DNA from: Fibrobacter sp. UWEL | GTDB lineage: Bacteria; Fibrobacterota; Fibrobacteria; Fibrobacterales; Fibrobacteraceae | DNA length: 64,000 nucleotides | Direction of reading: 5' to 3' | NCBI RefSeq assembly: GCF_900142535.1 | Contig: NZ_FRBE01000014.1 | Span: 1-64,000 of the forward strand | Shown: piece after piece, positions 53,151 to 55,736 of the stretch | Layout: the number at the start of each line of letters is the position of its first letter | Position numbering within the stretch: the first letter of the stretch is position 1 | Made by a program: the position numbers and the translations under genes | The notes under the pieces: model-generated | Told to the model about the DNA's origin: nothing | Seen by the model: the letters and a program-made list of their open reading frames with translations, nothing else | Database searches by the model: none

Positions 53151-53200
53151 TGTCATTCCGAGCGAAGTCCGCTTGTCATTCCGAGCGAAGTCGAGGAATC
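53151..53200. repeat. two copies of the GTCATTCCGAGCGAAGTC dispersed repeat
   Basis: TGTCATTCCGAGCGAAGTC occurs at 53151-53169 and again at 53174-53192, the second continuing with GAGGAATC. This is a dispersed intergenic repeat that also occurs at 55066 and, in a variant form, at 55793. It lies just after dnaJ. Confidence 0.85.
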
Positions 53201-53215
53201 TAAAGCATTAAAATG

Positions 53216-53298: not shown

Positions 53299-53380
53299 AT
53301 TTTGTTTCATTTACTTGCTTTTTTATTCCCACAGGGGTTATAGAAAACTTATTTTATCTTCAAGAGTTAGGAGGTTTCTT

Positions 53381-53980
53381 TTGAAAATCGAGAAGAAGAG
53401 AATAACTGCGGAATCCAAGTGGAGTACTGCAACAAAGAGTGGTTTGGCTGCTTTGATGGGTTTGAGCGCCGCGGCTTCCATGGTTGCTTGCGCAGATAGT
53501 GGAGCTCCGGCTGGTCCCGAAGAGACTCCCGAGCCGGAGGGAGGTGTTATTGCCCCGGATACGGAATATCCCAGTGATTCTATCGGTTCCTCAAGCTCCA
53601 ATCAGGTGGTTGTCGACATTCCCAAGAGCTCCAGCTCTGTGGATATGGATTTGCTCAGTAGTGCTTCTTGGCAGGATCCACCCCTTGAAGCCGGTGTACC
53701 TATCATTGATTATCCAGAAACCACATTTGTGGAAGTCAGTAGCTCCGGTGAAGAGTCCAGTAGCTCTGTTGAAGAAATCCTTTCCAGCTCTTCTTTGGAG
53801 TCCAGCAGCTCTTCTGTAGAAAGCAGTTCTTCTGAGAAAACTGATTTTTGCGATTTATCTCCTCAGTCACCTCTCTGTCCTTGTGATAGTAACGTGCATA
53901 TTTGCCCTGATCCCGATGATCCGGAAAATATGATTGTCAGCATGGTCACTACTTTCGAATCCACTGATATTGACGTATGA
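53381..53980 (+). CDS. Ser-rich lipoprotein, probable partner or substrate of the adjacent radical SAM protein
   Basis: A 199-residue protein. The start is taken as TTG 53381 because AGGAGG lies six bases before it; the open frame further upstream has no ribosome site. The N-terminus is a lipoprotein signal (KSGLAALMGLSAAASMVAC). The middle is a low-complexity Ser/Glu linker (about 70-150). The C-terminal 45 residues carry four Cys (CDLSPQSPLCPC, HIC) and an acidic end. It overlaps the radical SAM gene (ATGA), indicating coupled translation. The pattern resembles the lipoprotein of radical SAM/lipoprotein systems; the Cys-rich end may be the modified part. Confidence 0.72.
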   Translation: MKIEKKRITAESKWSTATKSGLAALMGLSAAASMVACADSGAPAGPEETPEPEGGVIAPDTEYPSDSIGSSSSNQVVVDIPKSSSSVDMDLLSSASWQDPPLEAGVPIIDYPETTFVEVSSSGEESSSSVEEILSSSSLESSSSSVESSSSEKTDFCDLSPQSPLCPCDSNVHICPDPDDPENMIVSMVTTFESTDIDV

Positions 53981-55167
53981 ACCTAGTGCTTTGCCTTACG
54001 GAACAGTGCAACTTGCGCTGTTCTTACTGTTATTATAAGGATCTTCAGAGCGACCGCGCTAATGTGATGAGTCGCGAGACCATGGAGGCGGCCATCAGGC
54101 TCTGCCTGGACCGTACGCTGTCCTTTAAGCAGAAGTACATGAACATCACGTTCTTCGGTGGAGAGCCACTGATTCGTAAGGATGAAATCTACGCGGGAAC
54201 GGAGTATGCCAAAGGCGTTGTGGCGGAGGCTATGGATTCCGGCCGGGCCCCCAAGGATTTTGACCTGCGGTTCGCCATCAATACGAACGGCACCTTGTTT
54301 GACGAACAGATGCTGGATTTCTGCGAAAAGGAAAATTTCCGTATCTACATTTCTGTAGATGGCCCGGCCTTGCAGCACAACATTTCCCGCCGCACCGTGG
54401 GCGACGCAGGCAGTTTTGAAGCCATGTACAAGCACCTCCCCCGCATTTCCAAGATGAATACGGTGGCGCTTTGCACGGTGACCCGTGAGCACGTTCCCCA
54501 CCTTTTCGAAGGCGTCAAATGGATTCACGAGCAAGGTTTCCGCTCCATGACCACCAGCATCGACTTTGACGGGAAATGGACCAGCGAGGACTTTGAAAAG
54601 CTGGCTTTGCAGTACCAGAAGATGGCTATGTACTGGCTGGAATGCCGCCAGAAGGGCGACCGATTTGCCCTCGGCACCATCCAGGACAAGATCAAGTTGC
54701 GCCTGCAGAATTTGCGATTCCGCCAGTATTCCTGCCACGTTTATAACGGAGCCATGGGCGTTGCCACCAACGGAAACATTTTCCCCTGCACCCGCTTTAT
54801 CACTTCCAAGGATAATCCGCCCTACGTTCAGGGCAATGTTTTTACGGGCTTTGATGAAGAAGCCTGCAAAATCATCAAGGATTTTTTGGACCATGATAAA
54901 AAGGAGTGCGAAGGCTGCGCCTTAAAGCATCGCTGTGTGGCTCATGAATGCGCCTGCACCTCTTTTTATACCACAGGTTCCATCGAAGGCGTTTCTCCGG
55001 AAGTCTGCACCCACGAACGCATGCTCACCGAAATCACCGACGCTTTGGTGGAAAAACTCTTGTATCGTCATTCCGAGCGAAGTCGAGGAATCTATGGTGA
55101 CACATTCCTTCCTCATAAGTGTTATACTTGTGTATCGAGTGTTCTCGGTTTAACAAGGTCTTTATGA
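53977..55167 (+). CDS. radical SAM/SPASM protein, probable peptide maturase
   Basis: A 396-residue protein. The radical SAM motif CNLRCSYC is at residues 11-18. A SPASM-like region follows at about 245-350 with YSCHVYN, FPCTRF, then CEGCALKHRCVAHECAC and a last Cys at about 350, so auxiliary iron-sulfur clusters are expected, as in sactipeptide or other peptide maturases. From residue 364 the protein reads RHSERSRGI, the translation of the dispersed repeat at 55066, so the last 33 residues are not family sequence. The gene overlaps both neighbours by ATGA. I infer it modifies the lipoprotein encoded upstream; the FibroRumin or rSAM/lipoprotein families are possible names. Confidence 0.82.
   Translation: MNLVLCLTEQCNLRCSYCYYKDLQSDRANVMSRETMEAAIRLCLDRTLSFKQKYMNITFFGGEPLIRKDEIYAGTEYAKGVVAEAMDSGRAPKDFDLRFAINTNGTLFDEQMLDFCEKENFRIYISVDGPALQHNISRRTVGDAGSFEAMYKHLPRISKMNTVALCTVTREHVPHLFEGVKWIHEQGFRSMTTSIDFDGKWTSEDFEKLALQYQKMAMYWLECRQKGDRFALGTIQDKIKLRLQNLRFRQYSCHVYNGAMGVATNGNIFPCTRFITSKDNPPYVQGNVFTGFDEEACKIIKDFLDHDKKECEGCALKHRCVAHECACTSFYTTGSIEGVSPEVCTHERMLTEITDALVEKLLYRHSERSRGIYGDTFLPHKCYTCVSSVLGLTRSL
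55066..55092. repeat. dispersed repeat inserted in the 3' end of the radical SAM gene
   Basis: CGTCATTCCGAGCGAAGTC followed by GAGGAATC is the same repeat as at 53174, here inside an open frame, where it encodes RHSERSRGI and carries the frame on to a stop at 55165-55167. Confidence 0.88.
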
Positions 55168-55736
55168 AAATCGTGATTTTGAATGCAAGTCCCCGCCCCA
55201 AGGGTAATATCAGTACCATGCTTCACACTATGGAAGAAGAATTGTTGTCTCGCGGGGACCAAGTGGAATTTGTGGATGTGAGCAAGCTGCAGGTTCGCCC
55301 GTGCATTGGCTGCATGAAATGCCGTAGCAGCAAAAAGTGTGTTCTCGCAGAAGATGATTCCCAACGGGTTTTGCGCTTGATTCAGGAAAGTGACGGTCTG
55401 ATTGTGGGCTCGCCCTGCTATTGGGGAAACATGACGGGACAATTGAAGATGTTGTTTGATCGAATGGCCTACGGCATGCTGGACGACAGCAACCACGGAT
55501 TCCCCAAGCCTTTGCTGAAAGGGAAAAAGGCCATTATTGTCAGTACTTGTACTACCCCATGGCCGTTCAATGTTTGGTTTAAGCAATCCGCGGGGGCTGT
55601 GCGGGCTATTAAGGAAGTAATCGGCTGGAGCGGTTTCAAGATTGTGGGCGTTGTGCAGAAAGGCGGTACCCATATGAAACAAGGCTTGACGGACCGCGAA
55701 ATTATGAAATGCCGTAAAATCGTCCAGAAGTTTTAG
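55164..55736 (+). CDS. NADPH-dependent FMN reductase / flavodoxin-like protein
   Basis: A 190-residue cytoplasmic flavoprotein from ATG 55164, which overlaps the radical SAM stop. The N-terminal phosphate loop NASPRPKGNIS and the flavin-binding GSPCYWGNMTGQLKMLFDR are typical of the NADPH-dependent FMN reductase family. It also has the iron-sulfur-flavoprotein-like cysteine motif CIGCMKC near residue 45. It may supply electrons to the adjacent radical SAM enzyme. A terminator follows. Confidence 0.85.
   Translation: MKIVILNASPRPKGNISTMLHTMEEELLSRGDQVEFVDVSKLQVRPCIGCMKCRSSKKCVLAEDDSQRVLRLIQESDGLIVGSPCYWGNMTGQLKMLFDRMAYGMLDDSNHGFPKPLLKGKKAIIVSTCTTPWPFNVWFKQSAGAVRAIKEVIGWSGFKIVGVVQKGGTHMKQGLTDREIMKCRKIVQKF

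Follow-up and report, generated by a model that had tools for sequence, protein, structure and literature searches.

The lipoprotein gene and the radical SAM/SPASM maturase gene that overlap in the window (the 64,000-nucleotide stretch of Fibrobacter sp. UWEL DNA analyzed here) are likely to form a two-part protein-modification system acting on the pre-lipoprotein, in which the maturase probably modifies its lipoprotein partner, a candidate substrate, before export. Several lines of comparative evidence point to this: the pair is kept in 37 of 37 close loci, 34 of them with an ATGA overlap, at different chromosomal sites and with arrays of up to five lipoproteins; the lipoprotein motifs are under purifying selection; the enzyme has complete cluster ligands and a CteB-like fold; and lipoprotein pairing recurs at 29 of 56 loci outside Fibrobacter. 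Some seven bacterial phyla contain pairs of this kind, which have been neither named nor assigned a function. An earlier, sequence-only reading had proposed an operon of three genes; all three are indeed there (Table 1), but only the first two appear to form the system, and the pair belongs to a wider cross-phylum family.

Table 1. Features of the lipoprotein-maturase locus and its 3' neighbor in the window.
Feature	Position	Strand	Basis
AGGAGG Shine-Dalgarno	53369..53374	+	Precedes TTG start of lipoprotein; read directly, perfect match
Lipoprotein, 199 aa, candidate maturase substrate	53381..53980	+	ORF; belongs to 67-sequence family adjoining maturase
Signal peptide, n-region (M)KIEKK.., candidate leader	53381..53488	+	IEK invariant 67/67; cross-phylum n-region profile similarity
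Lipobox Cys37, predicted lipidation site	53489..53491	+	Cys invariant 67/67
G-motif copy 1, PEGGVIAPDTE	53534..53566	+	More frequent in family lipoproteins than in shuffles
DIP..S block VVVDIPKSSSSVDMDLLSSA	53606..53665	+	Ile and Ser invariant 67/67; pN/pS 0.14
G-motif copy 2, LEAGVPIIDYP	53684..53716	+	More frequent in family lipoproteins than in shuffles
C-terminal Cys segment NVHICPDPDDPENMIV, invariant Cys175	53891..53938	+	Cys invariant 67/67
SMVTTFESTD motif	53939..53968	+	S, M, T, D invariant 67/67; pN/pS 0.11
ATGA stop/start overlap, lipoprotein/maturase	53977..53980	+	Kept in 34/37 loci
Radical SAM/SPASM maturase, 396 aa here, ~362 aa in relatives	53977..55167	+	Pfam PF04055 4.5e-15, alignment, model
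CxxxCxxC radical SAM cluster motif (C11, C15, C18)	54007..54030	+	Invariant in maturase alignment
SPASM region C253-x12-G-x4-C271, CX2CX5CX4CXC (C311, C314, C320, C325, C327)	54733..54957	+	Cys invariant
Last SPASM ligand C344	55006-55008	+	Invariant in maturase alignment
C-terminal read-through of dispersed repeat, outside conserved enzyme	55063..55164	+	Relatives end near residue 362
Flavoprotein, NADPH-dependent FMN reductase-like, CX2CX2CX5C	55164..55736	+	Pfam FMN_red (PF03358, 4.6e-22) / Flavodoxin_2

The source genome (3.53 Mb) has Fibrobacter succinogenes and Fibrobacter sp. MAGs as its near named relatives, and close maturases were found across the genus in a search of 151 genomes. 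Eighty regions were taken, of which 37 loci, including the window, have a maturase at at least 61% identity. A lipoprotein ending in a common C-terminal motif is encoded directly upstream of the maturase in every one of them, the arrangement of a precursor gene beside its maturase that is looked for in RiPP pathways. The conservation of this neighborhood in other genomes was one of the points on which the sequence-only reading had staked itself, and it held. The ATGA overlap was detected by script in 33 loci and by eye in one more (L050, where it lies one base off the start that the script assumed). The genes that flank the pair are dnaJ and a glucanase gene in the window and the nearest relatives, and in many other loci the pair follows the genes for the large and small subunits of acetolactate synthase (gene names read from sequence in both settings); thus, the pair stays together at different chromosomal sites. 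No peptidase, transporter or RRE gene was seen to be conserved beside the pair in the Fibrobacter loci examined.

The window lipoprotein (TTG start at 53381, stop at 53978-53980) has a signal peptide ending in the lipobox MVAC. The linker that follows is long and Ser-rich, and the final 45 residues contain four Cys, in line with the Ser-rich linker and short Cys-rich end noted in the sequence-only reading. The proposal of that reading that the Cys-rich end would be the modified segment captured a conserved region but was incomplete, the most conserved C-terminal residues being one Cys together with SMV.T(F/Y)E..D. No Pfam or NCBIfam family was found for this lipoprotein or for the tested lipoproteins of related loci. 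An alignment was made of 67 lipoproteins from the close Fibrobacter loci; since these were gathered through the C-terminal motif, its presence in all of them is partly by construction, although the directly upstream lipoproteins carry it independently of how the family was collected. Besides the lipobox Cys, judged by alignment, invariant positions in 67/67 comprise the N-terminal I-E-K, one Gly of the signal peptide, the Ile and Ser of DIP..S, one C-terminal Cys, and the S, M, T and D of the SMV motif. The pN/pS values of the signal n-region (0.21), the DIP block (0.14) and the SMV motif (0.11), compared with 0.46 in the remaining linker, place all three segments under purifying selection relative to the linker. 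The C-terminal Cys and the SMV motif are universal in class I lipoproteins, and certain class II lipoproteins do not carry the C-terminal motif.

From one to five tandem lipoproteins, often two to five, precede a single enzyme at each locus. A profile search covered 121 genomes. Among the matches listed, the strong ones lie at maturase loci, the source genome has just one of them, and genomes without a close maturase have none. Weak matches away from maturase loci are confined to the n-region, and include two small lipoproteins, L211:402-758 and L213:175-684 (minus strand), whose n-region reads MKIE(K/R) and which also carry a TAG(M/I) motif. The stretch read around these two contains no maturase gene, and they are possible substrates in trans.

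The radical SAM motif of the window maturase reads CNLRCSYC, and all 42 sequences in an alignment of the Fibrobacter enzyme family keep C11, C15 and C18 together with C253, C271, C311, C314, C320, C325, C327 and C344. The enzyme thus has the CxxxCxxC motif and the ligands for two auxiliary clusters that broadly define radical SAM/SPASM maturases, and the SAM cluster and SPASM-like cysteines noted from sequence turn out to be a complete ligand set. The Fibrobacter motif, CX2CX5CX4CXC, has one Cys above the canonical CX2CX5CX3C, and the Pfam SPASM score of the window maturase is only 14.2 bits, below the cut-off. Because the protein starts 10 residues before CxxxCxxC, it has no N-terminal recognition domain; nor was any small conserved neighbor other than the lipoproteins seen that could represent an RRE or PqqD-like protein, as judged from the gene neighborhoods read. 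The predicted model is of good quality (pLDDT 86.5), with a fold nearest to CteB, anSME and ChlB. The best PDB matches, and the nearest solved structure, are those of the SCIFF maturase CteB (5why/5wgg; sequence 5.7e-23, Foldseek 9.8e-20, TM ~0.7), although CteB is matched only from its residue 99 onward, so that the N-terminal part of CteB with its recognition domain has no counterpart in the window maturase.

Among named families, the PapB ranthipeptide maturases (NF047865; PapA/PapB, freyrasin), which are SPASM peptide maturases, gave the top score (214.2 bits, full-length). Membership was rejected, as the curated cut-off is 340; moreover, the substrate of PapB is not a lipoprotein, unlike the candidate substrate in the window pair, and the PapB-like L198, with CX2CX5CX3C, lacks the additional Cys of the window maturase. 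The idea of a radical SAM enzyme with a lipoprotein is already present in NCBIfam as TIGR04133/TIGR04134 (rSAM_w_lipo and lipo_with_rSAM), which likewise describe a radical SAM/SPASM enzyme beside a lipoprotein, but the window enzyme is outside that family: the maturase scores 25.6 bits against a TIGR04133 cut-off of 425, and the lipoprotein gives no match to the TIGR04134 model.

A scan of an 84,980-species genome collection, from which 80 loci were sampled, showed that nearly all sampled enzymes outside Fibrobacter have CX2CX5CX3CXC. In a quick tree, these CXC enzymes and those of Fibrobacter split from six non-CXC rows, L198 included, with 97% SH-aLRT support, and one non-CXC row (L171) falls inside the clade. 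The maturase belongs to this unnamed clade, which is distinct from PapB and TIGR04133. Upstream sequence sufficed for scoring at 56 CXC loci outside Fibrobacter. At 29 of them a lipobox ORF, called by a home-made rule, ends within -100 to +60 of the enzyme start, compared with 6 of 512 background intervals (1.2%); an additional P.Y(P/A/K) before the lipobox was found in 24 of the 56 and in 0/512 of the background. The organisms belong to Bacillota, Verrucomicrobiota, Kiritimatiellota, Planctomycetota and Myxococcota, with one proteobacterium that is unclassified; counting Fibrobacterota, the phyla number seven.

One type of partner consists of small lipoproteins, most of 47-150 aa, with repeats such as LAGDVAV. 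A second type, observed beside CXC-type SPASM enzymes (L129, L131, L132, L138, L152, L160 and L143), consists of ~250-aa lipoproteins with an N-terminal K.Y..P.YP and the motif HG.GRG..GCVSVAPP.FLSEEEA; the one tested is in neither Pfam nor NCBIfam. The Fibrobacter lipoprotein profile matches the small-lipoprotein profile over the n-region and lipobox (prob 75, E 2.4e-5), compared with a match to the hydrophobic part only in a control with unrelated lipoproteins (prob 26, E 7e-4). The small and ~250-aa profiles match likewise (prob 82, E 1.1e-5, against 7.8 in the small-lipoprotein control), and the Fibrobacter profile gave nothing beyond signal-peptide level against the ~250-aa lipoproteins. 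We hold with moderate confidence that the n-region may be shared between phyla, given that signal peptides resemble each other anyway. A lipoprotein is not an obligatory partner, because Fibrobacter class III maturases from within this clade (L066, L071, L074, L079, L081, L094, L096, L098) precede small Lys-rich proteins encoded 11-40 nt downstream; these are ~70-180 aa long, have no signal peptide, mostly lack Cys, and may represent a class of substrates that stays in the cytosol.

Because radical SAM enzymes are sensitive to oxygen and reside in the cytosol, and the maturase has no signal peptide, modification would be expected in the cytoplasm. The maturase would be translated coupled to the lipoprotein, keeping both levels matched, and would act on the pre-lipoprotein there. 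Substrate recognition would be RRE-free, through the n-region of the signal peptide (possibly) and/or the C-terminal motif. One or more residues of the part to be exposed later would be changed; the likeliest sites lie near the invariant C-terminal Cys and SMV.T(F/Y)E..D, or near G-x-V-x-V motifs in other members. Sec export and lipidation would follow, signal peptidase II cutting off the signal peptide as a candidate leader, and the modified segment would finally be tethered to the envelope through a Ser-rich stalk. The suggestion of the sequence-only reading that the product stays attached to the envelope as a lipoprotein is consistent with this route. A tentative extension, which we consider somewhat short of an even chance, is that such pairs represent phylum-spanning, envelope-displayed lipoprotein RiPPs, in which the n-region would serve as leader, signal peptidase II as protease and the Sec/lipoprotein pathway as exporter, with the CXC-type SPASM enzyme as the sole dedicated gene.

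The explanation first put forward, a three-gene operon with the flavoprotein as dedicated reductant, draws on the overlapping genes of the window, where ATGA is real at both junctions (53977-53980 and 55164-55167), and on the nature of the third product, an FMN reductase-like protein that carries CIGCMKCRSSKKC (CX2CX2CX5C) and resembles iron-sulfur flavoproteins. It is nevertheless highly improbable. The set of three was sought in relatives, and whereas the lipoprotein-maturase pair was always kept, the flavoprotein adjoins only 4 of the 37 maturases (window, L039, L042, L043); absent beside the other 33, it was discarded as a conserved third gene, and a role as dedicated reductant is not supported. 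In L039, L042 and L043 it is separated from the maturase by ~49-107 nt, without overlap, so that the second junction is not conserved. In the window this overlap is accidental, because a repeat is read into the 3' end of the maturase gene: relatives mostly end near 361-373 aa and the window adds the last ~34 codons. The dispersed 28-nt repeat GTCATTCCGAGCGAAGTCGAGGAATCTA is found at 53175-53202 and 55067-55094 and recurs across the genome, with 11 copies when up to two mismatches are allowed; one copy extends the maturase coding sequence. It is also unlikely, though less so, that the C-terminal motif serves as a signal for sorting or binding rather than as a site of modification, and that the enzyme acts elsewhere, being merely co-transcribed. 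Conserved C-termini can be sorting signals, and Ser-rich lipoproteins are common in Fibrobacter; however, such a signal would not account for the pairing in 37/37 loci, for arrays ahead of a single enzyme, or for the recurrence of the pairing in other phyla with different lipoproteins.

Within the preferred reading, that of a two-part modification system, two chemistries were weighed. A PapB-like, ranthipeptide-type thioether from the invariant C-terminal Cys to a nearby Asp, Glu or other residue is possible but rather doubtful. PapB is the best NCBIfam match and tolerates Cys-Xn-Asp with n = 0-6 (PMC9413430), and the C-terminal Cys is followed by an acidic residue at Cys+2 in 51/67 lipoproteins. 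Nevertheless, the score is below the PapB cut-off, Cys-X3-Asp/Glu at the invariant Cys is found in just 17/67 (CPDPD in the window), 8/67 have no acid within 7 residues, and the candidate motif is Cys-free in class III and in many clostridial partner proteins from this clade. At 17/67, Cys-X3-Asp was rejected as a conserved motif, and the substrate pattern of PapB does not describe the family. Two sequences from other phyla (VTVCEP and VQICPD) resemble the Fibrobacter Cys segment NVHICPD.

A C-C cross-link, epimerization or similar change on the Cys-free G-x-V-x-V or SMV.T(F/Y)E may be entertained with a little more weight than the thioether, because Cys-X3-Asp is unconserved and many partners lack a motif Cys, but it too falls short of being probable. 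Taken as guides rather than tests, because the patterns were chosen after seeing the data, the motif counts speak for it: G[DE][VIT].[VI] occurs 12 times versus 0.6 expected in clostridial and related lipoproteins of other phyla, the G-motif 50 times versus 9.8 in shuffles in class II and 41 versus 10.2 in the small lipoproteins of other phyla, and G[IVDM][PI] 20 times versus 4.9 in class III proteins. Proteins with G-type motifs are also often without Cys. In class I, however, the equally post hoc G-motif excess is weaker (72 versus 30.1 in shuffles, two copies being in the window lipoprotein), about half of the lipoproteins have no G-motif, and the Cys is invariant. Comparable by description is the cyclopropylglycine maturase TvgB, a radical SAM enzyme acting on short Cys-free Gly/Val repeats (TVGG; PMC9062424), although the precursor in that system, a small peptide and not a lipoprotein, comes with dedicated oxidase and peptidase/transporter genes.

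If the two-part system is real, it would place radical-SAM chemistry on the envelope of bacteria that live in the rumen and gut (Fibrobacter, Oscillospiraceae, Akkermansia), and it would show a RiPP without its own recognition domain, protease or transporter. To our knowledge, peptide modifications by radical SAM enzymes have been described chiefly for small peptides, whether secreted or intracellular, and for a few enzymes. A search of the literature on radical SAM enzymes with lipoproteins, signal peptidase II or Fibrobacter found no description of such a pair, although subscription journals are largely outside its coverage and may contain one. The pair is small enough for co-expression and mass spectrometry. 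Elsewhere, the source genome also encodes a true TIGR04133 enzyme (L209:2607-4488; 602.8 bits); the gene after it codes for a separate Ser-linked lipoprotein that scores below the TIGR04134 cut-off.
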